Shown one piece after another: positions 1 to 38,957 of a DNA stretch of 38,957 nt. The stretch lies in the NCBI GenBank assembly GCA_900321715.1, contig ONXC01000022.1, positions 1-38,957 of the forward strand, given 5' to 3'. The position numbers and the translations under genes were made by a program. The DNA comes from an uncultured Bacteroidales bacterium. GTDB taxonomy: Bacteria; Bacteroidota; Bacteroidia; Bacteroidales; UBA932. The notes beneath the pieces were generated by a model. The model ran no database searches. It was not told the origin of the DNA and saw only the letters and a program-made list of their open reading frames with translations. Position 1 is the stretch's first letter. Every line of letters starts with the position of its first letter.

Positions 1-1
1 G

Positions 2-136
2 GCCCAGTACCGCACAGAATACCGCACAGTCATGGTCCAGGACGTAACCCGGTATTACCACTGCGACTTTACCTGCGCCCGCTGCGGAGAAACCTGGCAG
101 AAAACCTGGGTGGAAAAGGAAGAGGTGACGCTTTAA
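2..136 (+). CDS. C-terminal end of an unidentified protein with a zinc-ribbon-like Cys cluster (partial)
   Basis: An open frame enters from the left edge and ends at TAA 134-136, giving 44 residues. The visible part contains YYHCDFTCARCGETW, a C-x3-C-x2-C-G pattern that looks like half of a zinc ribbon, followed by an acidic tail. The rest of the protein lies outside the window, so I cannot name it. No terminator is obvious in the 120 bp before the next gene. That gap holds one GGCCGAT motif (170-176) and the promoter of the following gene. Confidence 0.5.
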   Translation, partial: AQYRTEYRTVMVQDVTRYYHCDFTCARCGETWQKTWVEKEEVTL

Positions 137-226
137 TCGCTTAGAGGGCAAAGAATTATAACAGGAGATGGCCGATTGATATCTATTCTAAGAAGTTAGT
201 TATTTTTATAATAATTGGAAAATTGC

Positions 227-234
227 TATCTTTG
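227..234 (+). promoter_or_regulatory. Bacteroidota -7 box for the 257 gene
   Basis: TATCTTTG fits TAnnTTTG exactly and ends 22 bases before the ATG at 257. Because the box lies downstream of an in-frame TTG at 215, it argues against that upstream start. No clear -33 TTTG is seen. Confidence 0.6.
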
Positions 235-256
235 CACCGAATTAATTCAGAGAGAT

Positions 257-544
257 ATGAATTTAAGAGACATCAAAAAAGACATTGAGTACGTGATCGG
301 CGCATTCGTAGATGACTGCACCCTCTTCCTGAACGTAAACCCCGGCAAGAACGCCGACGAAATTGCAAACCTCATTGACAAGGCCGTAGACCTTTTCAAT
401 GATCTCCGTGAGAAGGTTGCAAAGAGCGCAGGCGCAGAGAAGCCCAAGGTGTGCTTCACCAGCATCCGCAAGGAACTGTTCGAAAAGACGGACGCCCTCT
501 ACGACGAGTTAAGCGCCGCCGTAAAGAAAGGTCTGGGAGAATAA
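257..544 (+). CDS. Small conserved Bacteroidales protein of unknown function
   Basis: The 95-residue product begins MNLRDIKKDIEYVIGAF and is predicted to be soluble and mostly helical, with many Lys, Asp and Glu and no signal peptide or membrane segment. It resembles a small uncharacterised protein family common in Bacteroidales. This is recalled from family knowledge and I know no function for it. The start at 257 was chosen because a -7 box (227-234) sits just upstream, inside the longer TTG-initiated frame. The gene is a single transcription unit ended by the hairpin at 564-586. Confidence 0.75.
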   Translation: MNLRDIKKDIEYVIGAFVDDCTLFLNVNPGKNADEIANLIDKAVDLFNDLREKVAKSAGAEKPKVCFTSIRKELFEKTDALYDELSAAVKKGLGE

Positions 545-563
545 TTTTTTATTCCATAAAAAC

Positions 564-592
564 AGCCCGCTCAATTCGAGCGGGCTTGTTTT
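564..592. terminator. Bidirectional intrinsic terminator
   Basis: A 9-bp perfect stem AGCCCGCTC/GAGCGGGCT with a 5-nt loop is followed by TTGTTTT on the plus strand and preceded by an A-rich stretch. It lies between the convergent genes ending at 544 (plus) and 596 (minus), so it probably serves both. Confidence 0.85.
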
Positions 593-595
593 GTA

Positions 596-1441
596 TCAGA
601 AGCTGAACGTATATTTGAGCCCAAGGATGAGGGCAGTGCTGTAGACCCAGCCGGTGCTGTCGGTGAAGATGCGGACACCTTTTTCTGCCCATTTATCGGC
701 CCCGTTGGTGTCTATCTCATAATCCATATAGTAATCAAAGAGAACATACGGAGTGATGGTGTGGCTCTTGCTGAGAAGGATGTCTGCGCCAAGGTTCAGG
801 CGGAGACGGTTGATGTAAGCGTGAGTGTACCCGGTGTGGGTGTAGGTGTAGTACTCCCTATTGGTGTCATTTGTTGTCTGGGCATTTCCGGAAACTGTGC
901 CCCAGGGGTCATTCAGGGCAGCACGTACCTCAAACGACAGTGAAGGGTCCACATACTTGAAGCCCTTATACTTTACGCCTATCCTTGACTTTAGGGCAAG
1001 GGCGTTTCTTGTGCTCTGATACACGTTGAGGGCATCATAAGTGTTGTGGGTTAACTGCAGACGTTCCCTGAGGGAGAAGCTGAACTTCCCGGCCTTCAGC
1101 GTTCCGGTTACATCGGCCGTAAGCCTGTGCTGCGGAGCCCAGAAACCTGTGTAGAGGGCGTCATTGTCCAGTTCCTTGTTTATCTTGTAGGGATTGATGA
1201 GGGTGTATCCAACGCCCACTTTCAGGAAGTCAAGCGGCTTGTATGTCAGGCCAAGGGTGGTTCTGAGGCTACTGAGTCCTGCAAAATTATCGGCCATCCT
1301 CATCTCTTCACGGGCCTCTATGTGGAGGCCTTTCTTTATTTTGTAGTCAACGCCAACGGAGGCACGGACTCCGGTAGAGAATGTCTGGCCGAAAGCTGCC
1401 ATAGGGGCCATCAGGGCCAGTATGAGGGCTATCTTTCTCAT
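596..1441 (-). CDS. DUF2490-like outer-membrane beta-barrel protein
   Basis: This 281-residue protein has a type I signal peptide (MRKIALILALMAPMAAFGQ, cleavage near residue 19), alternating amphipathic strands throughout, and a C-terminal aromatic residue (YTFSF) typical of outer-membrane barrels. The pattern (KIKKGLHIEAREEMR, then repeated RLRLNLGAD/GLKYTF strands) resembles DUF2490 proteins. It is the last gene of an operon with the DUF4956 and VTC-domain genes. Its ATG overlaps the upstream stop as ATGA. In known Bacteroidota clusters such a barrel accompanies VTC/DUF4956 pairs. A role in the outer membrane at the end of that pathway is inference. Confidence 0.75.
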   Translation of the reverse strand: MRKIALILALMAPMAAFGQTFSTGVRASVGVDYKIKKGLHIEAREEMRMADNFAGLSSLRTTLGLTYKPLDFLKVGVGYTLINPYKINKELDNDALYTGFWAPQHRLTADVTGTLKAGKFSFSLRERLQLTHNTYDALNVYQSTRNALALKSRIGVKYKGFKYVDPSLSFEVRAALNDPWGTVSGNAQTTNDTNREYYTYTHTGYTHAYINRLRLNLGADILLSKSHTITPYVLFDYYMDYEIDTNGADKWAEKGVRIFTDSTGWVYSTALILGLKYTFSF

Positions 1442-6297: not shown

Positions 6298-8919
6298 TTA
6301 AGATTTAGTTTTCCTTTTTTCTGCCTTGGCCCTCTCCCGGGCGATGTATCTTTCCAGCCGCCTCTGTTCCCGCAGCGACTTCTTCTCAAGGCGCCGCAGC
6401 ATCTTCAGCTTCTTGGCGCGTTCACGCTCCAGTTTGCGGGCGGCCTTGGCGGCCTGCTTCTGCTCATATTTCTTGTCTTCTTCGGCCCACTTGGCCTCAA
6501 GGGCCTTCTGTTTTTCGGCCTTCTTGATGGCCTTTTCCTCCGCTTTTCGGGCTTTCTCTGCTGCCTTTATCTCTGCCGGCGTGGGTACGTGCGGGGCCTC
6601 TACGGACAGGGAATCCGTTCCAGCCTGCAGACTGTCAGGAAGGGCGGTCCTGGGGGTGGACACGCTTCCGGAGAGGGAGTCGGGCGAAGCAGCCAGGGAA
6701 TCGGCCGGTACCGCCAGGGAATCCGGCAAAGCAACTGCCAGGGAGTCCTCTAGGCGGATCTGGGCCTGCTTCCTCACAACTTCAAGAGAATCCCTGATGG
6801 CAATGTCCCTGTAAACCTTCTTGATATATCCGGGGAAGTAGATTTCCGTCTGGGTAAAAGTGGTATGAGGACGCGCCAGATATGCCGTGCGCTGGCTCTT
6901 CCTGGGCTTGAGAGCCGTAACTGCCAAAGGAGAATCCGGCCTCTTCTCGGGCTCCCAGCGGTAGCCCTTCAGCTGGCGTTCCTGCTTGGGAAGCTGGACG
7001 GAAGGATAACCGTCGTTCTTTGGATTCTCATAGTAGTACATGTGGTCTATCTCTCCGTCAGTGAAAGTGGCGTAGAGCATCTTGGAATCCACTTTGTTCA
7101 CGGTTGCAAGAGCGCCGTTCTCTTCCAGGAAGAAGATGCTGGAAGCGCCTCCGAGGGCATCGAAACGGGTAAGGGCCTGGGTTGAGTCAAAGTAGGCCAC
7201 CATCTCCGTGCCGCTCACCTGGTCATAGCTCACGGGGTCTTCCTGGATGGTGATGAAGGCATTGGAAAGGAGGTGCGCCTTTTCTGTCCTCTTGTTACGG
7301 ATGACAAGGTAAATGCTGTCTGCCGCGTACTGGCGGTTTCCATCCGTGAAGAATATAGGATCCTTGTACACCCTGGCAAGAGAGTCAAGGTCACTGTATG
7401 CGAGGGAATCGCCCCTCATCTGCATGTTCCGACGGAACAGTTTCACGTCCTTGTTTCCCCAGATGAAGCCCACCTTGGTGGAGTCTTTGGGAACGATGAC
7501 GGAGTCTGCCGGGGCCGATAAAGAGTCTGCCGGGGGAGATTCCAGGGTGGGGCCGGGAATGACGGAAAGCGTGTCCGAAGGCACGGTAAGGGTGTCTACA
7601 GGTGCGGCAAGGGTATCTACAGGTACAGCCAGGGTATCGGCCGATACGGCAAGCGAGTCTGCAGGAACACTCAGTGAATCCCGCACAGGCGGGAGTGTGT
7701 CCGGCTGAGGCGGCACGGGCTTCGGGGCATCCTTTTCAGACGCGCCGGCCGGAGGAGTAGGGGTAGGCCCCCCAGGAGCCTTCCGCCCCTTGGCCGCGCC
7801 CTGCGGCGGGCGGTTAGGGTCGTCCTTCATGGCATCGGCCGCAGCTTTGGCGGCGGCTTCGGCGGCCTTGCGCCTGTACTCCATGATGGCGTCGCCGGAG
7901 ATGTCGCTGAGCCTTTTCTCGGAGTCCTTGATCCAGGCCTCCGGGATCTCATACTTCTTGAAGGCGCGGTAGATGAGGGTATCGGCCCCAAGATAGAGGG
8001 AATCCGGCAACTGCCCTTCCTCTTCCGTCACTGACATTATTGCGGGGTCTCGCGTGAGTGTGGCTCTCTCCAGGGAATCCGTCCACTGCAGATATCCGGC
8101 AAGGATGTACATGTTCTGGACGGTATCCATCACCTCCACCTTCCCCAGAAGCTCTACGTCGTTGACGGCCCTGTAGTAGTAGGCGGAATCGGACCAGGTC
8201 TCCTTCTCCTTGGTGAGGGTGTGGACCTTCTTCCTGAACATGAAAAGCTCCTCCTTGCGGTTGTACCATCCGTCATCGGCACTGAGCATTTTGTCGTCCT
8301 GCCACATGTCCGTGCCAAAGCCGAACCAGGCGGTGGAAAGGTCGCTGCGGTACTCCAGGCGGGAAGTCTTGATGAAGGTGGTGTCCATGTACATGTTCAC
8401 CTGGTCGTTGAACACAAAGAGCTTGGCCTTGGAGTCATAGGTGCCGTAGAGGCTCTCTATCACCTGGCCGTCCTTGTCCCTCATGGCGCCGCCGTCCTGG
8501 AAGACGGCTACGGAATCCTTGGTGTTGTAGTCCAGGTATTTTGTACGGAGGGTGTTCTTGTCCTGGTCTACCAGCTGCACAAGGTCTCCGCGGAACTTGG
8601 CCAGGTCCTGATCCACCACATATTGCAGGGTGTTGCTGGAAAGGGTTGTGCGGTCCTGGATGATGCGCACGTGCCCCATTGCGTCTATGATATTGGTGTT
8701 GATGTTCCAATATGCTGTGTCGCAGAGGAGGTAGGTGTCGTTGTGAAGGAATTTGGCGGGCCCGGTAACCTTCCTGTAGCTTTCTCCGTCAATATCCAGA
8801 AGCTGGGCGCTTTCGGCCTTTATGAGCAGCACCTTGTCCTGTGCCATAAGGGCCGATGACGCCGTCACTACAGACAGTGCCAGAGCAAGAAGATGCCTAT
8901 GAAGGGTCCTGGGGGTCAC
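6298..8919 (-). CDS. OstA/LptA-like LPS-transport family protein with low-complexity inserts
   Basis: This 873-residue protein starts at GTG, overlapping the stop of the upstream isomerase gene (TAGTG). A signal peptide ends near residue 27. Residues about 30-330 form beta-jellyroll repeats typical of OstA/LptA-like domains (GHVRIIQDRTTLSSNTLQYV, then LLGKVEVMD). LptA-type proteins bridge lipopolysaccharide across the periplasm, so a role in LPS export is likely. A second similar block is at about 495-640. Two low-complexity stretches, about residues 407-480 and 720-773, repeat units like VPADSLAVSADTL. The extreme C-terminus is a Lys/Arg/Glu-rich helix. This layout resembles Bacteroidota OstA-like proteins but is long. 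Confidence 0.8.
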   Translation of the reverse strand: MTPRTLHRHLLALALSVVTASSALMAQDKVLLIKAESAQLLDIDGESYRKVTGPAKFLHNDTYLLCDTAYWNINTNIIDAMGHVRIIQDRTTLSSNTLQYVVDQDLAKFRGDLVQLVDQDKNTLRTKYLDYNTKDSVAVFQDGGAMRDKDGQVIESLYGTYDSKAKLFVFNDQVNMYMDTTFIKTSRLEYRSDLSTAWFGFGTDMWQDDKMLSADDGWYNRKEELFMFRKKVHTLTKEKETWSDSAYYYRAVNDVELLGKVEVMDTVQNMYILAGYLQWTDSLERATLTRDPAIMSVTEEEGQLPDSLYLGADTLIYRAFKKYEIPEAWIKDSEKRLSDISGDAIMEYRRKAAEAAAKAAADAMKDDPNRPPQGAAKGRKAPGGPTPTPPAGASEKDAPKPVPPQPDTLPPVRDSLSVPADSLAVSADTLAVPVDTLAAPVDTLTVPSDTLSVIPGPTLESPPADSLSAPADSVIVPKDSTKVGFIWGNKDVKLFRRNMQMRGDSLAYSDLDSLARVYKDPIFFTDGNRQYAADSIYLVIRNKRTEKAHLLSNAFITIQEDPVSYDQVSGTEMVAYFDSTQALTRFDALGGASSIFFLEENGALATVNKVDSKMLYATFTDGEIDHMYYYENPKNDGYPSVQLPKQERQLKGYRWEPEKRPDSPLAVTALKPRKSQRTAYLARPHTTFTQTEIYFPGYIKKVYRDIAIRDSLEVVRKQAQIRLEDSLAVALPDSLAVPADSLAASPDSLSGSVSTPRTALPDSLQAGTDSLSVEAPHVPTPAEIKAAEKARKAEEKAIKKAEKQKALEAKWAEEDKKYEQKQAAKAARKLERERAKKLKMLRRLEKKSLREQRRLERYIARERAKAEKRKTKS

Positions 8920-14093: not shown

Positions 14094-14741
14094 ATGAACA
14101 CATCAGAGAAATTTGTCATAACCATCAGCCGTGAGCTTGGCTCCGGAGGACGCACCGTGGGCCGAAAACTCGCAGAGGCACTTGATGTCCGCTACTCGGA
14201 CAAAGAGCTTGTCCATGAGCTCATGAAGCGCTTCAATCTCACCGTTTCCGGCATTGAGAAACTCAAAGGAGAGAAAAAGACCTGGATATCGGACTTCCTC
14301 CAGATGGTGGCGCCCGTCCCCAAGATGTCCCTCCTCACCGGCTACGATGACAAATATGTGGCGGAATTCCGTCCTGATGTTTCATCGGCCGATATATTCA
14401 AGGCAGAGTCTGAGATTCTTAAGGCAATTGCCGCAGAGGAATCCTGCGTCATCGCCGGCCGTTCCGGTTTCTTTGTGCTTAAGGACTGCCCCAACAAACT
14501 GGATATCTTCATCACCGCTTCCCGTGAGCACCGCATAGAGCGCGTCTCCCGCAAGCAGAACCTCACCCCTGAGCAGGCGGGCATCCTCATCGATAAGATC
14601 GATAAGGACCGCGACACCTACATCAAGAACTTCGCCGGTGTCAGCCGCTACGACCTCCGCAATTACCAGCTTGTCCTCAACATGGACAACATCTCCGAGG
14701 ATAAGGCCGTGGAACTGATTCTTTCCTTCATCAAGGGTTAG
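14094..14741 (+). CDS. Cytidylate kinase-like family protein
   Basis: The 215-residue soluble protein opens with a P-loop, ITISRELGSGGRTVGRKLAE (residues about 9-28), typical of the cytidylate kinase-like family (PF13189). Further family-like parts are the DKELVHELMKRF helix, VIAGRSGFFVL near residue 122 and RIERVSRKQNLTPEQA with basic lid residues near 145. True CMP kinases phosphorylate CMP/dCMP. The substrate of this subfamily is not established. It stands alone with its own promoter, and its stop overlaps the stop of the convergent gene by 3-4 bp. Confidence 0.85.
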   Translation: MNTSEKFVITISRELGSGGRTVGRKLAEALDVRYSDKELVHELMKRFNLTVSGIEKLKGEKKTWISDFLQMVAPVPKMSLLTGYDDKYVAEFRPDVSSADIFKAESEILKAIAAEESCVIAGRSGFFVLKDCPNKLDIFITASREHRIERVSRKQNLTPEQAGILIDKIDKDRDTYIKNFAGVSRYDLRNYQLVLNMDNISEDKAVELILSFIKG

Positions 14742-18467: not shown

Positions 18468-19087
18468 TTGTACCAAATGTTGTTGGGGTTGTTTTCGCTG
18501 TAGCGGCGCCGTATGGTGAGTTCTCCTTCCCGGGTGGGTGTTATGAGCTGCGGGCAGCAGCCAACGGCCAGGGTGAGCACCTTGGTTTCATCGCTCTGGA
18601 TGCATACCAGCTCCAGTTCCGGATTGGCGGTGAGGTCAACATCGGCCAGCTGCGTTTCCCCAAGCCAGACCTTTTTCAGGTGGGGGAAGCGCTTGAGGTC
18701 CTCGTAGCTTTTGACGTAGAACATATGGATGCGGTAGGAGGTGAGGTTGAGCTCCGTGAGGGCCTCTTCCTCTTCCTTCGAGAGCACGCCGTCCTGGTTT
18801 GCATCGGCCGATTTCAGCGCGCAGCGCCAGACTTCAGCATCGACATACGGCGGGTCCTGGGCGGTGGCGCTGTAGCCCTCGATTTGTACCGGCGGCAATT
18901 GGGCCGATGCCGTCCACCAAACAAGGATTCCGGCCAGAATGAGTGCAAATATTACCACCACTATCCAGCCGTTCCGGGCTCTTGATTTATCGGCAAACAT
19001 AAATTCCTGATTTATACGTTGTTGCTCTATTTCCTGATTGATGCGCATCTGTTCACGCATCTGGAAATCTGTTTCCTGCTGGTCCAT
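18464..19087 (-). CDS. Single-pass membrane protein with EF-hand-like loop and LRR-like segment
   Basis: The protein has 207 residues. The first 38 residues are Gln/Glu/Arg-rich and probably a cytosolic coiled coil (QMREQMRINQEIEQQRINQE). One membrane helix follows at about 40-60 (GWIVVVIFALILAGILVWW). The outer part contains a canonical EF-hand or dockerin-like calcium loop, DANQDGVLSKEE, near residue 95, then a leucine-rich-repeat-like stretch (FPHLKKVWLGETQLADVDLTANPELELV). I do not know a named family with this combination. It is the first gene of a five-gene operon, with a -7 box at 19109-19116. Calcium binding and a sensor role are inferences from the loop alone. Confidence 0.7.
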   Translation of the reverse strand: MDQQETDFQMREQMRINQEIEQQRINQEFMFADKSRARNGWIVVVIFALILAGILVWWTASAQLPPVQIEGYSATAQDPPYVDAEVWRCALKSADANQDGVLSKEEEEALTELNLTSYRIHMFYVKSYEDLKRFPHLKKVWLGETQLADVDLTANPELELVCIQSDETKVLTLAVGCCPQLITPTREGELTIRRRYSENNPNNIWYK

Positions 19088-20126: not shown

Positions 20127-20127
20127 A

Positions 20128-20349: not shown

Positions 20350-20390
20350 AACCACCCTTAGGAAACTACGGTTTATTTTAGAAACAGCTA

Positions 20391-20442: not shown

Positions 20443-20496
20443 GATATATCGAAAAGTGTGCGTAAATTGCGTGCGTAATTTTAAAGGAAGGAAGTT

Positions 20497-21819: not shown

Positions 21820-22845
21820 TCATTCCTGGGCGGCGAGAGATTCTAGTGTTTCCTCACATCTGTTGGAAATAATACTAAAATCCCCCATTGAACGCTCTAA
21901 TGTAGTAATCATTTGAGCAGCAGCATTGTGGATTCTTTGATACTGCTCCAGAGCACTTTCGCAAAGTCCAATTATTCTCTCCATCACAGGAATCGAATCT
22001 GGATCCTCTGTCTTTGATATTTCGTCGTTTAATTCTACACGTAGTTTATCAAAAGCATTCCAGTAATGCAGAAAATTACTTTCCCCATATTCTCCTGTCC
22101 TATTATTATTGCGAATAACTTGGATGAATGCTTTTACACACGTTTTTTCATTATGTCCAAGCCAACCATATGCCAATGCGGCCTCCTGAATTGATTGTAT
22201 GGTTCCTCCTATGATAACAAGTTTATCATGAATCTCATTTGAAAGCCCATCACACATCTCATTAACTAAAGCAACTGCCGGCGACATGTAATCGGAAATA
22301 CTATAATACTTGTTAAGTACAAGAGTGGGTTTTTCAACGGAAAGGCCAGTTAACGCTAGTAATAAGTCTTCCCGGTCACTCTCGCTCATCCTTCTATACA
22401 AATCTGCCGGGGCTCTTTGTAACCGAATTGTTCTGAACGGATTATCGGACAGAGACTGCTTGAATTCACTAATCTTTTCGATACGGTTGTTGATGTCATT
22501 TTTAGCCATTGTAACATCTGACTTCATCAACTCGATGCGGGTCTTGTACAAGTCTAATACTCTTTGTCTTTCATCCTTTTTATCTAACTCGTATTGCGTG
22601 GAAAGAATGTCATTAGCCTTTTTCTGCATCAAAAAGGCTAAAAAGGTTACTACTACCCCTGCAATGGCGATAAATGGCCCCATTGTGCCAGCAATAGTAT
22701 CCCCAATCTGGCCAGTTTCGCTAAAATCAATTACACCTGGTCGCGTAAAGAGAAATGGTGCGAATAATGCAAATAGAATAATCACGCCGGTCAAAACATA
22801 CCAGCCGATATATGATTGTTTCTGATTCTTTTTCATAATCATCAT
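21820..22845 (-). CDS. Two-TM coiled-coil membrane protein, candidate abortive-infection (AbiC-like) protein
   Basis: The protein has 341 residues. Two membrane helices (about 14-33 and 54-74) flank the loop FSETGQIGDTIAGTMGPFIA. A predicted coiled coil (about 76-125, KKANDILSTQYELDKKDERQ) and a soluble helical C-terminal domain of unknown fold follow. The GxxGDxxxGxxxPF...FxxxMQ arrangement resembles the N-terminus of putative phage abortive-infection proteins (putAbiC type) found in defence islands. This is recalled similarity, not a search result. The start may be 22845, 22842 or 22836. The gene is strikingly AT-rich, has its own promoter and occupies a cargo position beside the integrase. 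A defence role is inference. Confidence 0.6.
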   Translation of the reverse strand: MMIMKKNQKQSYIGWYVLTGVIILFALFAPFLFTRPGVIDFSETGQIGDTIAGTMGPFIAIAGVVVTFLAFLMQKKANDILSTQYELDKKDERQRVLDLYKTRIELMKSDVTMAKNDINNRIEKISEFKQSLSDNPFRTIRLQRAPADLYRRMSESDREDLLLALTGLSVEKPTLVLNKYYSISDYMSPAVALVNEMCDGLSNEIHDKLVIIGGTIQSIQEAALAYGWLGHNEKTCVKAFIQVIRNNNRTGEYGESNFLHYWNAFDKLRVELNDEISKTEDPDSIPVMERIIGLCESALEQYQRIHNAAAQMITTLERSMGDFSIISNRCEETLESLAAQE

Positions 22846-22851
22846 TTTTTA

Positions 22852-22859
22852 CAAAGTTA
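22852..22859 (-). promoter_or_regulatory. -7 box of the AbiC-like gene
   Basis: The minus-strand TAACTTTG matches TAnnTTTG. It ends 6 bases before the first ATG (22845) and 15 before the third (22836), so the leader is very short. Confidence 0.55.
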
Positions 22860-22900
22860 ACCCTTTTTCTTCATACTCTAAAGATACATTTGACTCAGCT

Positions 22901-23078
22901 CATTTTACACTGACCTTCGTAAGTTTATTACATTACACTCTAATTCCCGAAAGTGAACTGTGGATTTGACAGTTTCTTTCGGGAAAGGCTGATTTGTGTC
23001 AAATTGGTTATACCACAATCATGTATTTGAGTGTATTGAAATTTCATAGATTTTCAACATTCAAAATAGTGTAAAATG
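22901..23078. repeat. Nested inverted repeats in the intergenic control region
   Basis: The outer arms CATTTTACACT (22901-22911) and AGTGTAAAATG (23068-23078) are perfect inverted repeats. Inner arms CATTACACTC (22931-22940) and GAGTGTATTG (23029-23038) match at 9 of 10. At the centre TTCCCGAAAG (22944-22953) pairs with CTTTCGGGAA (22976-22985) and AACTGT (22956-22961) with ACAGTT (22969-22974). TTGACAGTT recurs at 22966 and 23094. The set is roughly symmetrical around 22985-22990. It may be a replication or transfer origin or an operator array. Confidence 0.6.
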
Positions 23079-23093
23079 CGTATAATCAGCCTC

Positions 23094-23124
23094 TTGACAG
23101 TTCAAAATTAAGCGCTCATCTTTG
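23094..23124 (+). promoter_or_regulatory. Promoter of the DUF3853/RepA-like genes
   Basis: TTGACAG (23094-23100) and CATCTTTG (23117-23124) form a -33/-7 pair with one mismatch in the -7 box. The likely start of transcription falls on the palindrome AGATTAATCT (23129-23138). Confidence 0.5.
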
Positions 23125-23148
23125 CGTTAGATTAATCTGCGTAACACG

Positions 23149-23162
23149 CACAACCGGTTGTG
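23149..23162. promoter_or_regulatory. 14-bp palindrome, candidate operator
   Basis: CACAACCGGTTGTG is a perfect palindrome in the leader between the promoter (23094-23124) and the DUF3853 start at 23191. Its position suggests repression or autoregulation of the two downstream genes, perhaps by the DUF3853 protein. This is inference. Confidence 0.5.
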
Positions 23163-23190
23163 TTTTCATTAACTTAATTTCGGTTGAACT

Positions 23191-23469
23191 ATGTTTATCG
23201 AAGACACGACACCCATCGCAGCGCTCACCGTTGCGGACCTTAAGAAACTGCTCAAAGACTCCCTCCGCGAGCAAAAGATACCCGGAAAGCGCTACGTCTA
23301 TGGACTCAAAGGAATCCAGGACCTCTTCGGCGTGTGCCACCTCACGGCCCAGCGCTACAAGGATGGCTTCCTCGCCCCCGCCTGCATCCAGAACGGGAGG
23401 AAGATCATCGTTGATGCCGATATGGCCATAGACCTTTTTAAGAACTATCAGTATGAGAACGCTCGATGA
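23191..23469 (+). CDS. DUF3853-family DNA-binding/excisionase-like protein
   Basis: The 92-residue protein has KRYVYGLKGIQDLFGVCHLTAQRYKDG (about 33-59), a helix-turn-helix of the excisionase/MerR kind, followed by APACIQNGRKIIVDADMAIDLF, the conserved C-terminal part of DUF3853 proteins. These small proteins occur in Bacteroides mobile elements, upstream of an AAA ATPase, as here. It probably binds repeats of the element and controls excision, replication or expression. The last 17 bases overlap the next gene, so the two are translated from one transcript. Confidence 0.85.
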   Translation: MFIEDTTPIAALTVADLKKLLKDSLREQKIPGKRYVYGLKGIQDLFGVCHLTAQRYKDGFLAPACIQNGRKIIVDADMAIDLFKNYQYENAR

Positions 23470-24517
23470 AATTGACCCCATCGCCGCTATTACGGCCGAG
23501 ATAGAGAAGTTCCAGAAGATGCCGGATAGAATCGGCATCATGTCCGTCAAGAGCGCCAACCAGCGGGTCGATGACGCCTTGCAGGAACCCGACCCAAAGA
23601 TGTACTTCTACGACCTCTTGGTCGAAGGGGAATGCACCGTCCTTTTTGCCTCCTCCAACGCCGGCAAATCCGTCCTGGCCACCCAGATGGCCGAGGCTGT
23701 TGCCAAAGAGAACATAGTCCTTTACCTGGACTGTGAACTCTCGGCCAAGCAGTTCCAGATGCGCTACGTCGAGGGGACGGTCTCTCCCATCATCCACCGC
23801 TTCCCTGATACCCTCCTTAGGGCCGAAATCCGCCCGGACGACATCGTGGACACCAACCTGGAGGATGCCATACTTGACAGTGTTGCAGTCGCAGCCGAAT
23901 ACCGCGGTATCCGCCACATCTTCGTGGACAACATCACTTTCCTCCTCAACGACTCCGAGAAAGGCGAGGCCGCCGGTGCCTTCATGAAGAAGATTCTTGC
24001 CCTCAAGAGGAAGTACGGCCTTACCATGGTCATCGTCGGCCATTCCCCGAAACGCCAGCCCCGCACGCCGATGGTCCAGAACGACCTTGCCGGCTCAGCC
24101 AAACTGATGAACTTCTTTGATGCAGGCATCGCCATCGGCCGAAGCGCCAAGAGTTCGGAACTCCGCTATGTCAAGCAGGTCAAGGTCCGCACCGGATTGA
24201 ACAAGTACGATGGCGAGAAGGTCCTTCTCTTCAAACTGAAGCAGGAACAAGGCTACACCCAGTTCATTTATGAAGACACAGTGAGTGAGGCCGATCACCT
24301 TCGTCAGAAGAATGCCCTCACCGAAGCCGAAGACTTCCAGGAACTCATAGACCTTCAGGCCCAGAACAAAACCGTGCGGGAAATTGCGGCAGAAACCGGC
24401 TTTGCCCCTACTACCGTCCACCGCAAGATTAAGAAGGCTCTGGAGCTCGGTTACAAACCTTCCTGTTCTGTTCCGTTCCACAGTGGAGTGGAACAGACGG
24501 AACAGTTAAATAATTGA
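23453..24517 (+). CDS. RepA-like AAA ATPase/helicase of the mobile element
   Basis: The protein has 354 residues with a RecA/RepA-type ATPase core: Walker A ASSNAGKS at residues 66-73, a DCELS element near 90, Walker B HIFVDN at 155-160, and VIVGHSPKR near 195 as a likely sensor. A C-terminal helix-turn-helix (KTVREIAAETGFAPTTVHRKI) lies near 303-323. It resembles the AAA_25/RepA hexameric helicase family used for plasmid-type replication. The variable C-terminus (SVPFHSGVEQTEQLNN) is encoded by GTTCC/GGAAC inverted repeats. Together with DUF3853 it suggests that the excised element can replicate or be controlled like a small plasmid. Confidence 0.8.
   Translation: MRTLDEIDPIAAITAEIEKFQKMPDRIGIMSVKSANQRVDDALQEPDPKMYFYDLLVEGECTVLFASSNAGKSVLATQMAEAVAKENIVLYLDCELSAKQFQMRYVEGTVSPIIHRFPDTLLRAEIRPDDIVDTNLEDAILDSVAVAAEYRGIRHIFVDNITFLLNDSEKGEAAGAFMKKILALKRKYGLTMVIVGHSPKRQPRTPMVQNDLAGSAKLMNFFDAGIAIGRSAKSSELRYVKQVKVRTGLNKYDGEKVLLFKLKQEQGYTQFIYEDTVSEADHLRQKNALTEAEDFQELIDLQAQNKTVREIAAETGFAPTTVHRKIKKALELGYKPSCSVPFHSGVEQTEQLNN
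24465..24503. repeat. GTTCC/GGAAC inverted repeat cluster 1
   Basis: GTTCT, GTTCC, GTTCC (24465-24479, 5-bp steps) face GGAAC at 24490-24494 and 24499-24503. CTGTTCCG and CGGAACAG form 8-bp arms, with TTCCAC/GTGGAA inside. The cluster overlaps the 3' end of the RepA-like gene and may act as terminator, iteron or protein-binding site. Confidence 0.6.
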
Positions 24518-24577
24518 AAAATATTTAGCCGTGAACGATATTTTTTGTATCTTCGCGGCTGGATATTTTTATTGCTT

Positions 24578-26041
24578 ATGAAATCATTCATTATTGCAAG
24601 GGAAAGAGAGCATGCCACGCTCAAAAGGTTGTTAGAAGAACCCACGGCGCAGTTTTTGGCCGTTTACGGCAGGCGTCGTATAGGAAAAACGTTTCTGATT
24701 CGGGAGTACTTTGATGACAACTTTGCTTTCCGGCATACCGCCATCTCTCCATTGGAATTGGAGAATAAAGACGAGAAGCTTCTCTACAAAATACAGTTGG
24801 AGGAGTTCGCTCATTCCCTAGAGAAATACGGAGCGCAATTGGACGGCCCTCTTGTGAGCTGGTTTGATGCCTTTCATAAACTGGAAGAGATGCTTGACCG
24901 CAAAAGGTCTAAGAAAAAGATGGTGGTTTTCCTTGATGAAATGCCTTGGCTCGATACGGCTAAGTCCGGATTCATGTCTGCCTTCGAGCACTTTTGGAAC
25001 GATTGGGGCTGTGCAAAGCATAATCTTCTCTTGATTGTTTGCGGCAGTGCCACTACCTGGATGTTGGACAAACTCATCAACAACAAAGGAGGGCTTTATG
25101 GACGCACCAATAGGGAGATGCACATGCATCCTTTCACTTTGAACGAGACCGAGCGATATTTCAAGTCTAGGAATATCACAATGGACCGCTATGATCTTGC
25201 CCAGACCTATATGATTATGGGCGGAGTAGCGTATTATATGTCTTTCTTTGAGCCCGGGAAATCCCTTGCCGATAATATTGACGATATCTTCTTCCGGGAG
25301 GGTGGCTTTCTCCGTGCAGAGTATGACCGTCTCTTTACGTCTTTGTTTGCCGACAATGAGAACTACAGAAAAATAGTTGAGGCACTCTCTGGGCTTAGGT
25401 ATGGTGCCACGCGTGAGCAAATCTCTAACGTTACCGGCATCTCGGAGGGGGGTACTTTAAGCGCAATGCTCAAAGCCCTCGTAAAGAGTGACCTGGTTTC
25501 AACTTATTATAACTTTGGAGAAACCAAACGGAACCTCTACTACAAACTCACGGATATGTTCTGTCTCTTTTATCTAGGCTTTGTCAGCAAGAATCCCTCC
25601 AATAATCCGCATTTCTGGCGAGACAATCAGGCATCTCCGAAGCTCAACCGTTGGCGGGGAATCGCCTTTGAAGATGTTTGTTTTGTCCATCAGGAGCAGA
25701 TTCGAGCCTCGCTTGGTATCGCTGGAGTCCAGGCAGAGATATATCCCTGGCGAGCAACTGCAGATGGAGATGTGCCAGGCGCTCAGATAGACATGCTTAT
25801 TGACAGAGCAGATCGAGTGGTTAATCTTTGCGAGATGAAATTCACTCGTGGTGACTTTGCCATAGACAAAGATTATGACGCCAAATTGCGGAATAAAATA
25901 GATGCACTATTGACAGCCACCAAGAACAAGAAAAACATCCAGCCTACGCTAGTTACTACGTATGGCCTTAAGATGAATATGTATAGCAATCGCATCCAAC
26001 GGATTGTAATAATGGATGCGTTGTTTGAGCCGGCCATTTAA
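24578..26041 (+). CDS. ATPase_2/DUF234 family AAA protein
   Basis: I place the start at 24578 (MKSFIIARERE), as a -7-like TATCTTCG lies about 20 bp upstream and the longer frame adds only hydrophobic codons. The 487-residue protein has Walker A GRRRIGKT (31-38), Walker B VVFLDE (Asp120-Glu121), a winged-helix segment (about 275-320, GATREQISNVTGISEGGTLS) and a C-terminal DUF234 domain. In that domain Asp405 (GAQIDMLIDR) and Glu419-x-Lys421 (CEMKF) resemble a PD-(D/E)XK nuclease core. Such stand-alone ATPases are common in Bacteroidota and archaea, but their role is unknown. As island cargo, a DNA-related or defensive role is possible. Confidence 0.85.
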   Translation: MKSFIIAREREHATLKRLLEEPTAQFLAVYGRRRIGKTFLIREYFDDNFAFRHTAISPLELENKDEKLLYKIQLEEFAHSLEKYGAQLDGPLVSWFDAFHKLEEMLDRKRSKKKMVVFLDEMPWLDTAKSGFMSAFEHFWNDWGCAKHNLLLIVCGSATTWMLDKLINNKGGLYGRTNREMHMHPFTLNETERYFKSRNITMDRYDLAQTYMIMGGVAYYMSFFEPGKSLADNIDDIFFREGGFLRAEYDRLFTSLFADNENYRKIVEALSGLRYGATREQISNVTGISEGGTLSAMLKALVKSDLVSTYYNFGETKRNLYYKLTDMFCLFYLGFVSKNPSNNPHFWRDNQASPKLNRWRGIAFEDVCFVHQEQIRASLGIAGVQAEIYPWRATADGDVPGAQIDMLIDRADRVVNLCEMKFTRGDFAIDKDYDAKLRNKIDALLTATKNKKNIQPTLVTTYGLKMNMYSNRIQRIVIMDALFEPAI

Positions 26042-26043
26042 TT

Positions 26044-26162
26044 GGCTCACAATGGGCTCAAATTCCGCTGACTAACACGATCAAGCGCGTGTGGTTTTTG
26101 TTAATAATCGGCTGAATTTCAGTCGATTATTTTCTTGTTGCAAAGGGCTCACAAAGGGCTCA
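26044..26162. repeat. Direct repeats GGCTCACAAWGGGCTCA downstream of the DUF234 gene
   Basis: The 17-bp sequence occurs at 26044-26060 and 26146-26162 with one mismatch, 102 bp apart. Each copy contains GGCTCA twice, so there are four units. They resemble iterons. No gene covers them. Confidence 0.55.
26103..26135 (+). terminator. Probable terminator of the DUF234 gene
   Basis: AATAATCGGCTGAA can pair with TTCAGTCGATTATT, with a very tight loop, and is followed by TTCTTG. A similar CTGATTTTCAG dyad recurs at about 26221-26233. The weak T tract and tight loop make this uncertain. Confidence 0.45.
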
Positions 26163-26273
26163 TATAACGACTATCACCGGTAGCCTTCTTTGCACAGGAA
26201 ATCCATTTAAAAGTTAACTCGCTGATTTTCAGTGGGTTCTTATTTGCTGAGGAAATCACTCTTTAACTCAGTC

Positions 26274-26317
26274 GTTCCATCCGTTCCGCATGTTCCACTC
26301 CACCTATGGAACGGAAC
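26274..26317. repeat. GTTCC/GGAAC inverted repeat cluster 2
   Basis: GTTCC occurs three times at exact 9-bp steps (26274, 26283, 26292) and GGAAC twice (26308, 26313). CGTTCCAT (26273-26280) and ATGGAACG (26306-26313) are perfect arms. It resembles cluster 1 at the end of the RepA-like gene. The DUF234 gene lies between the two clusters. Confidence 0.6.
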
Positions 26318-26470
26318 AAGATGGTTTATGCCGTGTTTTTTTTGCTGTTCGAGAATAAAAGCATAAAATGATAGCAGCGGATTAAATGTACCCCCTGTAG
26401 CACTTTCAAATGTACCGGGTTGCTCTTGTCATAGAGGTGTGTGATCGTATTCAAATCCATCCCCACCCCC

Positions 26471-26505
26471 TATAAACAAAAAACCATCACAGGGGGTTGT
26501 GACGG
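26471..26505 (-). terminator. Terminator downstream of tRNA-Gln inside the island
   Basis: On the minus strand CCGTCACA/TGTGATGG pair with one mismatch and are followed by TTTTTTGTTTATA. The flanks (TATAAACAAAAAACC and GGGTATATAG) match those of the tRNA-Met terminator at 20128-20161, but the stem sequence differs. Confidence 0.65.
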
Positions 26506-26568
26506 GTATATAGAGAGTTTTGTCTGTGAGATTGATCGTAGTCAATCAAGACATATGTTTTGTTGGTG

Positions 26569-26593
26569 TGGTAGCGGGAGTGGGTCACGATCC
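26569..26593 (-). pseudogene. 3' fragment of a tRNA-Met gene
   Basis: Positions 26563-26593 repeat 20216-20246 exactly (31 bp). They include the last 25 nt of tRNA-Met, from the T-arm to the CCA. The fragment abuts the 3' end of the intact tRNA-Gln gene and lies just inside the right att site. It cannot form a tRNA. Confidence 0.8.
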
Positions 26594-26608
26594 TTGAGAT
26601 AGAAGGAC
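26594..26608. other. Right attachment site (att core)
   Basis: TTGAGATAGAAGGAC equals 20335-20349 and is the complement of the last 15 nt of tRNA-Gln (discriminator, acceptor arm and part of the T-stem). The tRNA gene is intact on this side. Confidence 0.85.
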
Positions 26609-26664
26609 TCGAACCCTCACTGACAGAGCCAGAATCTGTAGTGCTACCATTACACCATATCTCA
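26594..26664 (-). tRNA. tRNA-Gln (CTG)
   Basis: A 71-nt cloverleaf can be folded: acceptor TGAGATA/TATCTCA, D-arm GTGT/GCAC, anticodon stem ACAGA/TCTGT with loop TTCTGGC (anticodon CTG), T-stem GAGGG/CCTTC with loop TTCGAGT, discriminator A. CCA is not encoded. Its 3' end is the integration target of the island. A promoter lies upstream (26686-26693). Confidence 0.92.
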
Positions 26665-26685
26665 ATGTGCCCCGAATTGGGACTG

Positions 26686-26693
26686 CAAATTTA
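26686..26693 (-). promoter_or_regulatory. Promoter of the tRNA-Gln (originally tRNA-Gln/tRNA-Met) operon
   Basis: The minus-strand TAAATTTG has a TTG 19 bases upstream. The box ends 21 bases before the tRNA-Gln 5' end. It is the only consensus promoter seen for the tRNA pair. Confidence 0.65.
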
Positions 26694-26776
26694 CTGCTTT
26701 TTTCCAAATCTGCAAGCGTAAAATTAAAAAAAGTGAAAAAGGCGCCAGAACTCTTTCTGAAAACCACGGAAAATGC

Positions 26777-26784
26777 TATATTTG
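26777..26784 (+). promoter_or_regulatory. Promoter of the nine-gene plus-strand operon
   Basis: TATATTTG has TTTC 19 bases upstream, one mismatch to the -33 TTTG. The box ends 6 bases before the ATG at 26791, so the mRNA should be leaderless or nearly so. Confidence 0.65.
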
Positions 26785-26790
26785 CAGTCT

Positions 26791-27321
26791 ATGCGTGCGC
26801 GTGTGTACATATACATTCTTTCAGTGCTCCTTCTGGCCGGCTGCAATAAGTCCCCGGTGACGGAGGGCACGGATATGCATGAGTTCACGCAGGAAGAACT
26901 TCAGAAAAAGCGTCTGGACGATGCCTTCACGGTGTTTTTCAAGAAGTTCAATCTGGACAAGGTGGATAATCCCACCGCGGAAATCCTCTCAAACAGCAAA
27001 GTCACAATACCCAGCGTGGGCGTGATCCGTTACACTTATACCAAGAACGGCCTTACGCTCATCTCCATGGACGTGAGCTCCGGCGGCTTCGTGGCTACCC
27101 TCCACGGCGGCATCCGTCTTGAGGGAGTGGGCCTTGGAGAAAACGGGACAAAGGTGTTCATTGACGGGGACCAGCTTGCAACCCTGGACATGGTCCTTTA
27201 CAACAACGTTCCCACGCCCGTATTCCGCTTCCCGGACGGCACCACATACGCCGTAACGGGGGTCCTTCTTGTAGAACCGCTTATAGACTTCCTTCTGAAG
27301 AATGTGTTATCTACGGAATAG
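26791..27321 (+). CDS. Lipoprotein of unknown function preceding the TonB-type receptor
   Basis: The start at 26791 lies directly below the -7 box, so the six-codon upstream extension is rejected. The 176-residue protein has a lipoprotein signal (MRARVYIYILSVLLLAGCNK, acylated Cys18). The mature part is a mixed alpha/beta domain (QEELQKKRLDDAFTVFFKKF, GVIRYTYTKNGLTLISMDV, FIDGDQLATLDMVLYNN) that I do not recognise. The last 20 bases overlap the receptor gene, so the products are probably made together. A helper of the receptor is a reasonable inference. Confidence 0.7.
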   Translation: MRARVYIYILSVLLLAGCNKSPVTEGTDMHEFTQEELQKKRLDDAFTVFFKKFNLDKVDNPTAEILSNSKVTIPSVGVIRYTYTKNGLTLISMDVSSGGFVATLHGGIRLEGVGLGENGTKVFIDGDQLATLDMVLYNNVPTPVFRFPDGTTYAVTGVLLVEPLIDFLLKNVLSTE

Positions 27322-31223: not shown

Positions 31224-31801
31224 TGGCAAACAAACCCCTTAATACAGACCTTCTTGACCGTGCAATAATCTTTGCGGTCAAGGCCCATGCCGGCACTGAG
31301 CGCCGCGGAAAGGGCTTCCCCTACATTGTCCACCCCATGGAGGCCGTGGAAATAGTGGCCACCATTACTCCTGATCAGGAACTCCTTGCCGCCGCAGCTC
31401 TCCATGACGTAATTGAGGACACGGATATATCGGCCGATGAACTCCGCGCGGAATTCGGGGACAGGATAGCAAACCTAGTTGTGGCGGAATCCGACGTTTT
31501 CCCGGAGGGCGTTTCAGAGGAGGACAGCTGGCGTGCCCGCAAGCAGGCCGCCATCGACCGCCTTGCCGCCGCTCCCCGCGACGCCAAGATAGTTGCCATG
31601 GGAGATAAGCTGTCCAACATGAGGGCAATTGCAAGGGACTACGCCGTGAAGGGAGATGAGCTGTGGAAGATATTTCACGCCCCGGATCCCAGTGACCACG
31701 AGTGGCATTACAGGGGCCTTGCCAATTCCCTCCGAGACCTAAAGGACACATTTGCATTCAAAGAATTCGAATCACTTATCAATCAGATATGGAAGCACTG
31801 A
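31223..31801 (+). CDS. HD-domain (p)ppGpp hydrolase (SpoT/MESH1-like)
   Basis: The 192-residue protein is only a SpoT-type hydrolase domain. It has RGKGFPYIVHPMEAV (His37), AAALHDVIEDT (His61, Asp62, Glu65, Asp66) and GDKLSNMR (Asp128, Asn132), the Mn-binding and catalytic set that removes pyrophosphate from ppGpp. No synthetase, TGS or ACT domain is present, so it resembles stand-alone small alarmone hydrolases (MESH1/SAH). It directly follows the synthetase gene with overlapping stop and start codons, which implies linked dosage. The pair amounts to a bifunctional Rel enzyme split in two, in reversed order. Confidence 0.9.
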   Translation: MANKPLNTDLLDRAIIFAVKAHAGTERRGKGFPYIVHPMEAVEIVATITPDQELLAAAALHDVIEDTDISADELRAEFGDRIANLVVAESDVFPEGVSEEDSWRARKQAAIDRLAAAPRDAKIVAMGDKLSNMRAIARDYAVKGDELWKIFHAPDPSDHEWHYRGLANSLRDLKDTFAFKEFESLINQIWKH

Positions 31802-37061: not shown

Positions 37062-37086
37062 CTGACGCTGAGTCAATGGGTTATAC

Positions 37087-37124
37087 AAAGTCGGGTGCAC
37101 CGCGAAGTGCACCCGACTTTTATT
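37087..37124. terminator. Strong bidirectional terminator
   Basis: A 14-bp perfect stem (AAAGTCGGGTGCAC/GTGCACCCGACTTT) with the 6-nt loop CGCGAA is followed by TATTA. It lies between the convergent OPT and pepT genes and has A and T tracts on both sides. Confidence 0.9.
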
Positions 37125-37145
37125 AAATTGCTGAGTATCAGGGGT

Positions 37146-38372
37146 TTATTGGCCAGAAGCAAACAGGCCGATAATATTGAGGATTACCTCCGAGGCTTTC
37201 TCCATGCTCTCCAGCGGGACGAACTCCATCTTGCCGTGGAAGTTCAGGCCGCCTGCGAAGATGTTGGGGCAGGGAAGGCCCTTGAAGGAGAGGTTGGCGC
37301 CGTCCGTGCCGCCGCGGATGGGCTGGATCTTGGCCTTGACTCCGGCCATCTCCATGGCCTTCACGGCCTTGTCTATGATGTGGTAGTGGGGTTCCACCTG
37401 CTCACGCATGTTGTAGTACTGGTCCTTGAGGTCCAGCTTTACGGTGCCTTCTCCGTATTTGGCGTTGATGAAATCGGCCACCTTGGACATCATTTCCTTA
37501 CGGGCCTCGAACTTCTCACGGTTATGGTCACGGATGATGTAGGCGAAGTCTGCCTCCTCCACCGCGCCCTTGAAGGAGATGAGATGGAAGAAGCCCTCGT
37601 AGCCCTCCGTGTATTCCGGGCGGGCCATAACGGGAAGCATGGCATTGAATTCCTGGCCGATAAGGATGGCATTTTTCATCTTGCCCTTGGCATAGCCGGG
37701 GTGGACGTTGCAGCCCTGGATATGGATTTTGGCACTTGCCGCGTTGAAGTTCTCAAACTCAAGCTCTCCAATCTCGCCGCCGTCCATGGTGTAGGCGTAG
37801 TCTGCGCCAAAGCGCTTGACGTCAAACTTCACAACGCCGCGGCCGATTTCTTCGTCCGGGGTAAAACCTATCCTGATGGGCCCGTGCTTGAATTCAGGGT
37901 GCTCCACAATATACTGGACGGCGTTCATGATTTCCGCAACGCCGGCCTTGTCATCGGCCCCAAGAAGGGTTGTTCCGTCTGTTGTGATAAGGGTTTGGCC
38001 GATATAATGGAGCATTTCCGGGAATTCCGAGGGCTTCAGTTCCAGGCCGGGAACGCCATTGAGGGCAATTGCGCCGCCGTCGTAGTTCTCCACAATCTGA
38101 GGCTTGATATCTGCGCCTGAAGCGTCCGGGGCGGTGTCTACGTGGGCGATGAAACCTACGGCGGGCACTTCCTTATTTATATTAGAAGGTATTGAGGCCA
38201 TTACGTAGCCGTAGTCGTCCAGGGTCACGTCAATGTCCAGCGCTGCAAGTTCGTCGCGGAGCATCTTCAGCAGATCCCACTCCTTTGCGGCCGATGGCTG
38301 GGTGTCCGACTCTTCATTACTCTGGGTGTCTACGGAAACGTAGCGTAAAAAACGGTTTAGTAGTTTTTCCAT
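37146..38372 (-). CDS. pepT: Peptidase T (tripeptide aminopeptidase)
   Basis: This 408-residue cytosolic zinc enzyme of family M20B removes the N-terminal residue of tripeptides. The metal and catalytic residues are complete: His77 and Asp79 ([10 protein letters not shown]), Asp140 (LLGADDKAG), Glu174-Glu175 (TPDEEIGRG), Asp197 (MDGGE) and His379 ([11 protein letters not shown]). The length agrees with E. coli PepT. It is transcribed alone toward the strong terminator at 37087-37124, convergent with the peptide transporter gene. The pair could act in peptide use, although they are not co-transcribed. A promoter-like TATATTTA lies at 38398-38405. Confidence 0.95.
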
Positions 38373-38397
38373 ATTATCTGAACTTCATCTTGAAGTG

Positions 38398-38405
38398 TAA
38401 ATATA
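38398..38405 (-). promoter_or_regulatory. Probable -7 box of pepT
   Basis: The minus-strand TATATTTA matches seven of eight positions of TAnnTTTG and ends 25 bases before the pepT ATG at 38372. Confidence 0.45.
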
Positions 38406-38475
38406 CGCTTTTTCCATGGTTTTGGCGGGCATTTTAAGAAAATTTAAAAAAATGTTGAAAAAAGTGTTTAAAAAA

Positions 38476-38506
38476 TTTGTCAGGTTAAAAAAATTGTCTA
38501 CCTTTG
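38476..38506 (+). promoter_or_regulatory. rRNA-type promoter upstream of 23S
   Basis: TTTG (38476-38479) and TACCTTTG (38499-38506) are separated by exactly 19 bases. This is a perfect Bacteroidota -33/-7 pair inside a very A/T-rich upstream region, as expected for a strong rRNA promoter. It drives the leader and 23S gene. Confidence 0.8.
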
Positions 38507-38510
38507 CAGT

Positions 38511-38859
38511 CCCGTTTGAAACGAGCATCAAAAATGAGGTTTCAAAAAGGTCTTTGAAATACATTTTTCCAAGATCAAGGAAGACGACAGTCGAGGACCG
38601 CAGCAACCTTTTGGTTGTGAGGACCGGAGGCCGAGTCTGACGCAGAGATTGGGAAAATGTGTTCAAAGAAAAAGTTCATTGACAATACTGAGAGAATAGA
38701 TTAGAGGTAAAGCAAAAGATAGAAAATATTAGTCTGTAACTTTGAATACGGAATTTTCGTTGAAGAAGATTGTGGACTACAATTTCAATAGGCAAGAGCA
38801 AAACATAGAAATATGTGATTCACAGTGTGGAGGCTGCGTGAGTGGCTGAAGCACGAAGA
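38511..38859 (+). ncRNA. Structured rRNA leader before 23S
   Basis: About 350 nt lie between the promoter and 23S with no credible gene. TCTTTGAAATACATTTTTCC (from 38551) pairs with a complementary arm at 38649-38669 over about 20 bp, closing a 76-nt segment that contains the hairpin CAACC-TTTT-GGTTG (38604-38617). GTTCATTGACAATACTG (from 38674) resembles the conserved antitermination or processing region that precedes rRNAs in this phylum. It is probably an RNase III-type processing stalk. Confidence 0.6.
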
Positions 38860-38957
38860 GAGAAAGAAAAGAAGAGCGAACGGAGGATGCCTAGGCTATC
38901 CGGAGGCGATGAAAGACGTGGTAAGCTGCGAAAAGGCTCGGGGATCTGCAAACAGGA
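38860..38957 (+). rRNA. rrl: 23S rRNA, 5' end (partial)
   Basis: The last 98 bases align by eye with the 5' end of bacterial 23S rRNA. GGAGGATGCCTAGGC corresponds to the GGTGGATGCC region near position 24-33 of E. coli 23S, followed by GAGGCGATGAAAGACGTG and TAAGCTGCGA. The exact 5' end is estimated from that alignment and may shift by several bases. The gene continues beyond the window. No 16S rRNA and no Ile or Ala tRNA gene precedes it. Confidence 0.9.

Follow-up and report, generated by a model that had tools for sequence, protein, structure and literature searches.

The DNA analysed here (the window) is the entire contig C29, 38,957 nucleotides long, of the genome assembly of an uncultured Bacteroidales bacterium (GCA_900321715.1, contig ONXC01000022.1), and its subject is a short word, GGCCGAT, which reads ATCGGCC on the opposite strand. 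Over positions 1..38957, exact counting gave 42 copies on the forward and 36 on the reverse strand; with 78 copies, GGCCGAT/ATCGGCC was the top-ranked 7-mer of the window, and the related words GGCCGAA, GGCCGAC and GGCCGAG occurred 17, 3 and 12 times. Pairs of overlapping copies form the 10-bp palindrome ATCGGCCGAT, located at 7636..7645, 14384..14393, 18803..18812 and 31429..31438. Two forward-strand copies (170..176 and 20040..20046) lie beyond the long open reading frames (ORFs of at least 120 aa), and 76 of the 78 copies lie outside 20.1-27.2 kb. An earlier note on this DNA, made from the sequence by eye, had counted about 75 copies outside this region and non-coding copies near 170 and 20039, in good agreement with the exact figures. 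Its four palindromes and the position of the first (7636) were also correct; the other three, given as 14385, 18801 and 31428, were displaced by one or two nucleotides.

The word-poor region (20100..27200) is an island with 2 copies of the word, in which 2 of 7 permissive codon contexts (described below) are occupied. It opens with a phage-type tyrosine integrase gene (20497-21819); the island sequence that starts with this gene (20497-27200) also contains an ATPase_2-type gene (24545-26041) and an ORF of 341 aa (21820-22845) whose membrane-receptor-like match is sub-threshold.

The home genome of the window (29 contigs, 2.04 Mb, 80.6% complete) contains 1662 + 1617 = 3279 copies of the word on its two strands, compared with 100 + 126 = 226 of the reversed control word. 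Expected numbers were obtained from a 410-kb sample, composed of the window and 19 stretches from other contigs (L010-L028), as follows: 728 copies were present, where an order-2 Markov model predicted 57.9; in coding DNA, 670 copies were found against 92 (standard deviation 9, maximum 113) in 60 within-gene codon shuffles, a 7.3-fold excess; and 41 kb of intergenic DNA held 50 copies against 5.1 expected, an approximately tenfold enrichment. Density was 1.23 copies/kb in intergenic DNA and 1.83 copies/kb in coding DNA, and coding copies were oriented along the gene (325) or opposite to it (344) in similar numbers. The comparison with shuffled genes and with the rest of the genome had been set beforehand, and the excess holds in both. 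The opinion of the earlier note that codon choice was insufficient to explain the word, and its estimate that the strands were about equal, are therefore upheld; the excess is confirmed as real and is larger than that note could see.

When all 7-mers of the home genome were scanned by codon shuffling, GGCCGAT reached z 60, and the next six words overlapped either GGCCGAT or TGCCGAT. TCCGGAA and TCACGGA (z 14) have no overlap with the word, and TCCGGAA was raised in word-free groups too. A maximal-order Markov model run on the window did not flag GGCCGAT, which we attribute to the word being so dense that it accounts for its own sub-words. Separately, some coding words of the 410-kb sample were strongly avoided relative to codon shuffles: CCTCGAG (1 vs 102), TCGCCGA (14 vs 114) and CGAGAAG (21 vs 130). 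GATC was present 900 times, against 1622 expected. The avoidance of CTCGAG suggests a past or present restriction system.

The dipeptides that can carry the word were sorted by the base beside them. In the home genome, Ala-Asp was encoded as GCC-GAT in 277/333 cases (expected 19%) when the preceding codon ended in G, and in 112/166, 11/116 and 5/37 cases after T, C and A, respectively. Ser-Ala was encoded as TCG-GCC in 212/307 cases after A (expected 4%), compared with 7/207 after C, 8/111 after G and 21/126 after T. For Ile-Gly, ATC-GGC was used in 123/158 cases before C (81/153 before A, 51/193 before G, 30/103 before T) and for Gly-Arg, GGC-CGA was used in 39/89 cases before T and in 8/365 otherwise. 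The four permissive contexts are filled to 83%, 69%, 78% and 44%, versus 10%, 8%, 27% and 2% at the wrong neighbouring base, giving ln odds ratios of 3.75, 3.23, 2.23 and 3.55 (2.88 and 1.09 for the T-first form). The word fills most of the sites that synonymous codon choice permits.

The codon preceding Ser-Ala ended in A in 41% of cases in the home genome, compared with 11-13% in word-free sets. Conversion of AGY serines to TCG was rejected: the AGY share before Ala was 36% (274/751), against 28-29% in word-free sets, and since AGY serines are undepleted, mainly synonymous paths were taken. Repair of a single mismatch type (Vsr-like) was also rejected, because the bias hits several positions and several kinds of change. 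The cost in amino acids is small: the dipeptide values for AD, SA and IG were 1.07, 1.11 and 1.06 in the home genome and.95, 1.06 and.93 in word-free loci.

The distribution of the word was assessed in relatives. Named relatives of the DnaE protein were Bacteroidales metagenome-assembled genomes, many of them apparently ruminant-derived, and Candidatus Cryptobacteroides species showed 68-69% DnaE identity to the home genome. From this similarity, the host genus is probably Cryptobacteroides or one near it, and the host group is probably rumen-dwelling. Among 400 genomes of the same genus (the home genome included), an even draw from a larger group, 74 carried at least 1000 copies of GGCCGAT, every one at 4.0 times the control word or above, and 41 carried at least 2000 copies (both counts were made by eye). 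Most of the remaining genomes stood at 1-3 times the control, as judged by eye, and some were intermediate (G067, 998 vs 251; G052, 632 vs 87). TGCCGAT, counted in 52 genomes, outnumbered GGCCGAT in some of the clade-A genomes described below: G073 (2678/1702), G268 (2409/1447), G361 (1494/1164) and G180 (1494/868).

In a DnaE tree of 81 rows, built by a quick method, the 31 rows called A, which iterate KGCCGAT (K being G or T), were placed in a single branch of 36 rows (SH-aLRT, Shimodaira-Hasegawa-like approximate likelihood ratio test, 99); the five uncalled rows of this branch were short or intermediate, at 2.5-5.3 times expectation. A second clade, B (11/11 rows, support 100), iterates a different word, KGAATAT, and rows outside both clades reached at most 2.3 times expectation. 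For the first position, the home genome gave G 728 vs 58, T 234 vs 39.5, C 70 vs 36 and A 50 vs 33, and nine clade-B loci (181 kb) gave GGAATAT 170 vs 34, TGAATAT 100 vs 26.5, C-first 58 vs 25 and A-first 35 vs 25. The order G, T, C, A is identical in the two clades, and this matching preference therefore gives both words a common frame, K-G-nnn-A-T. One locus, L070, carries KGACGAT (23 vs 4.6). At least 1000 copies of GGAATAT were present in 54/400 genomes, of which 27 reached 4 times the control or more; the rest of the 54 include AT-richer genomes, in which this word is common anyway. The sets of 74 and 54 genomes are disjoint: 0/400 had at least 1000 copies of both words. KGCCGAT is a lineage-specific iterated genome word, stronger in its G-first than in its T-first form; this restriction to a clade, and the second word of the same frame in another clade, were beyond the reach of the earlier note.

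Scanned by codon shuffling, six groups free of the word and a further, mixed set gave no comparable word (z at most 10). GGCCGAT was also counted in 16 whole genomes from other families of the order; it did not exceed 1.8 times the reversed word in any but one of them, which is AT-rich (22 vs 7). Of 16 stretches from other families, one was too short to use, and the remaining 15 (5-20 kb) had no KGnnnAT word exceeding z 5. The literature on Cryptobacteroides and Bacteroidales that was covered, in which subscription papers and preprints are mostly missing, yielded no such element. Two local repetitions were recorded separately: in L069, GTACATA/TGTACA words are iterated (GTACATA 24 vs 1.4 in 13.9 kb), likely as a repeat array, and in L032, GACGGCA was found 37 times vs 4.4 in 13 kb, likely within a repetitive gene.

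Occupancy of the permissive contexts was weaker in other clade-A loci: for Ala-Asp,.49 after G,.34 after T,.22 after C and.44 after A (of 36); for Ser-Ala,.61 after A and.08-.30 after the remaining bases; for Ile-Gly,.72 before C and.30-.41 before the remaining bases. In clade B, Glu-Tyr was encoded as GAA-TAT in 71/123 cases after G and 62/79 after T (.41 after C,.39 after A), and Tyr-Ser as TAT-TCM in 73/96 cases after A and 69/232 after other bases. The two dipeptides were themselves elevated in clade B (1.38 and 1.68 vs.95 and 1.12). Word-free groups had no comparable rise for Ala-Asp, and a small rise for Ser-Ala (6/33, in a small sister-group sample).

Arrangement of the copies was examined over 887 permissive contexts. 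Occupancy was.72,.74,.74,.75 and.81 with 0, 1, 2, 3 and 4 other copies inside 500 bp; by distance to the nearest copy, it was.44 at 8-25 bp (11/25),.66 at 25-50 bp and.71-.81 at 50-1600 bp. Counts per gene followed a Poisson distribution (chi2/df 1.03, 284 genes), with 6 genes having none where more than 2.5 were expected. With flat occupancy and Poisson gene counts, each copy therefore seems to act alone. Spacing was near exponential (coefficient of variation 1.05); the exceptions were too few intervals of 5-50 bp (31 vs 57) and the overlapping palindromes, which make up 17/708 adjacent pairs. There was no gene-end bias (P 0.21) and no helical periodicity. A strand bias (2p-1) of at least 0.1, i.e. 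55:45 or more, was rejected (P 0.0008); the strands were more balanced than chance (P 0.009), for which the palindromes are the sole explanation offered. Opposite-orientation pairs dominated at 4-30 bp in both sets (10/14 and 18/24), and at 30-100 bp the same orientation was seen in 38% of pairs in one set and 62% in the other, with no other trend in pair orientation. The 20 words that differ from GGCCGAT by one letter (TGCCGAT excluded) totalled 1066 vs 1051 expected, so there is no general halo of decayed copies. Individual near-misses did differ: GGCCGAA was raised (144 vs 51), A-first and C-first forms were raised 2.1-2.2 times, and others were lowered. In other clade-A loci, GGCCGAC was raised (249 vs 109).

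Copies were compared across orthologous stretches. In five genomes at 88-93% identity, 157/189 home-genome copies were perfectly kept, compared with about 47% of windows taken in the same phase; an additional, sixth stretch, which was short, gave 5/9 vs.22 for the control, and in 14 genomes at about 70-72% identity, 52/246 copies were perfect vs about 10% of controls. Copies are conserved above their surroundings, yet turn over at constant density.

Gene families that might supply a reader were searched for in 31 genomes: the home genome and 10 others of clade A, 10 of clade B and 10 of neither. ComEC was present in 31/31. The type IV pilus ATPase (T2SSE/PilB family, PF00437) was over the cut-off in 0/31, with weak matches in 29; pilin families were outside this search. 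For the methyltransferases, the numbers of positive genomes (clade A, clade B, neither) were as follows: C5-methyltransferase PF00145, 4/11, 10/10 and 2/10; PF01555, 1/11, 3/10 and 5/10 (two of these five sub-cut-off); PF07669 (over cut-off), 5/11, 9/10 and 5/10; PF02086, 3/11, 1/10 and 1/10. None of these four families is common to clade A, PF02384 and MmeI models being outside the search across genomes, and G379, with 3748 copies of the word (92% complete), had zero matches in all four. In 8/10 clade-B genomes with a C5-methyltransferase match, the match had the same 1203-bp span (E 1e-45 to 1e-49), seemingly a clade-wide gene, although unaligned. The home genome encodes a complete MmeI-type (type IIL) restriction-methylation enzyme (L197:2810-5593). 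The G280 counterpart is almost identical to it up to about residue 500, then divergent through a part that includes the target-recognition domain, and agrees again at the very end (76% overall); by this comparison, it looks like a specificity swap. As reader of the word, the MmeI-type enzyme is disfavoured, because G280 has the same word with a diverged target-recognition domain. In another member of the Bacteroidota, Riemerella anatipestifer, the essential transformation genes include ComEC, DprA, ComF and RecA, along with four genes without homology to well-characterised transformation proteins, and the accessible portion of the report names no pilus gene (PMC8459023). Going by what that portion lists, uptake through other outer-membrane parts therefore seems possible in the phylum.

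Taken together, these results call for a bias that works per copy, on DNA, on both strands, in genic and intergenic sequence, and mainly through synonymous paths, and whose word differs between two clades with K-G and A-T retained. That the word simply results from codon usage, from base composition or from repeats has a negligible probability: GCC and GGC are common codons, but shuffling them gives 92±9 copies instead of 670, the same dipeptides with the wrong neighbouring base are unaffected, and relatives of similar composition lack the word. Chi sites are short, asymmetric, over-represented and lineage-specific, and a Chi-like hotspot of a resident RecBCD/AddAB-type nuclease would likewise be a short, asymmetric, lineage-variable mark of self DNA. 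As a yardstick, Chi (GCTGGTGG) was analysed in 300 kb of E. coli K-12: there were 67 coding copies vs 26.8 after codon shuffling (2.5x), 51/69 copies were on the leading strand (51:18, from what we take to be the positions of origin and terminus), and Chi filled 51/113 Leu-Val contexts vs 161/455 elsewhere (.45 vs.35). Unlike Chi, GGCCGAT is 7.3x over the shuffle, is strand-neutral and fills.83 of its Ala-Asp contexts vs.10; a Chi-like role is very unlikely. The word could also be selected directly, outside recombination, as a binding site needed in many copies by a protein of chromosome structure, segregation or repair. This would account for a conserved, DNA-level word in coding and non-coding sequence, and the lower occupancy where a neighbour lies 8-25 bp away (11/25) agrees with it. 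Such signals are usually localised or strand-polar, whereas the word has Poisson gene counts, lacks strand polarity and helical periodicity, and shows no clear preference in orientation between pairs more than 30 bp apart. A near-equal benefit at all permitted sites is hard to picture as a function, and a drive fits better than a function of spaced copies; direct selection is judged unlikely.

The closest known analogues are the uptake sequences and the highly iterated palindromes (HIPs) of cyanobacteria; these two suggestions of the earlier note hold up, and its third, Chi, does not. Accessible parts of two articles describe the DNA uptake sequence (DUS) of the Neisseriaceae as having several dialects that track the core-genome tree, with a fixed CTG core and +10 A, and 3269 copies in Eikenella corrodens (PMC3630211), and as conserved, absent from recently acquired genes, mainly intergenic, and spaced to match conversion fragments (PMC2397512). 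GGCCGAT resembles it in being a short, asymmetric, conserved word with thousands of copies and tree-congruent dialects that share fixed positions, and the abundance in E. corrodens and the word-poor island would also suit a classical DUS read by a Neisseria-like type IV pilus receptor. Unlike the DUS (about 12 bp), it is 7 bp long, belongs to another phylum, fills most permitted codon contexts, shows Poisson counts without redundancy from 50 bp or gene-end bias, and occurs where no PilB/PilT-type ATPase exceeds the cut-off (31 genomes; weak matches and pilin search as above), so that a pilus-read DUS is extremely unlikely. The uptake signal sequence of the Pasteurellaceae is similarly short and highly repeated (hundreds to thousands of copies), but is gene-end biased according to the accessible text (PMC2346458), unlike GGCCGAT. 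For HIPs, the available portion of Elhai 2015 proposes a ratchet of methylation-directed repair, a drive without function, and mentions genomes with replacement words and exceptions to the HIP1-methyltransferase rule (PMC4390886). Such a ratchet, in which a methyltransferase would recognise the word and methylation-directed mismatch repair would fix word-completing mutations while the word itself stays unused, would suit a very dense, site-autonomous and strand-neutral word; the complete MmeI-type enzyme of the home genome and the C5-methyltransferase in 10/10 clade-B genomes are also compatible with it. The frame K-G-nnn-A-T, with its penultimate A, resembles asymmetric adenine-methylation targets. 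In contrast to HIP1, the GGCCGAT core is not palindromic, two words of one frame each belong to one clade, and clade A shares no methyltransferase among the four families searched, as G379 illustrates; G280 moreover keeps the word despite its diverged MmeI-type domain. We consider the ratchet unlikely. GGCCGAT could not be established as a member of either the uptake-sequence or the HIP1 kind, and the word is assigned to none of DUS, HIP1 and Chi.

The explanation that we tentatively favour, while placing it short of even, is recombination-coupled recognition of self DNA, with a per-copy fixation bias and an uptake-like reader that is not a pilus; we prefer it to the methylation ratchet on account of the pattern of dialects and of the island poor in the word. 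A sequence-specific DNA-binding factor would touch K-G and A-T and read a changeable middle triplet. Every copy would independently raise the odds that the strand or allele carrying it is retained (log odds of about 2-4), most likely when cells recombine with one another: DNA that is imported or invades would be preferentially accepted or kept if it carries the word, in short tracts, and each new copy would spread through its own small drive. In this way the word would mark self DNA, and an altered reader specificity would create a new dialect, a behaviour like that of uptake sequences with non-pilus machinery.

Several observations weigh against this explanation. No receptor for the word was found in the families searched, and ComEC is present in genomes with and without the word alike. 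Simple uptake models expect neighbouring copies to be redundant, and the data show no redundancy between 50 and 1600 bp, so recombination-coupled recognition requires short tracts; occupancy was low for contexts with 5 other copies in 500 bp (about 8/23) and for those more than 1600 bp from the nearest copy (2/8). The intergenic density is under that of coding DNA, unlike the DUS. Scarcity in acquired DNA comes from a single island with 7 contexts. The Ile-Gly context is weak evidence, because it is also high before C in the word-free sister group of clade A (34/46). In the L010 region, the five nearest loci kept 50/75 copies, a modest gap to the controls (.43-.63), and among 25 further loci, 5 fell under their control (L065, L070, L072, L074 and L075, the last from outside clade A).

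Iterated words are known as the Neisseriaceae dialects, the Pasteurellaceae uptake signals and the cyanobacterial HIPs, and the force that drives them is still disputed. The present case lies in a further phylum; a single genus provides 400 searchable genomes with two dialect clades, and word-free relatives serve as controls. Its codon contexts give a measure of how strong the force is (ln odds 2-4), and because it depends so little on local density, drives per copy can be told apart from drives per DNA fragment. It is possible, if doubtful, that the Bacteroidota possess a self-recognition word system without type IV pili, in which a K-G-nnn-A-T reader with a changeable middle triplet would drive the word, one copy at a time, toward saturation and a change of dialect would split related species into separate gene pools. 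Should the reader turn out to be a protein of DNA import or recombination, it would show how these gut bacteria distinguish their own DNA from foreign DNA.

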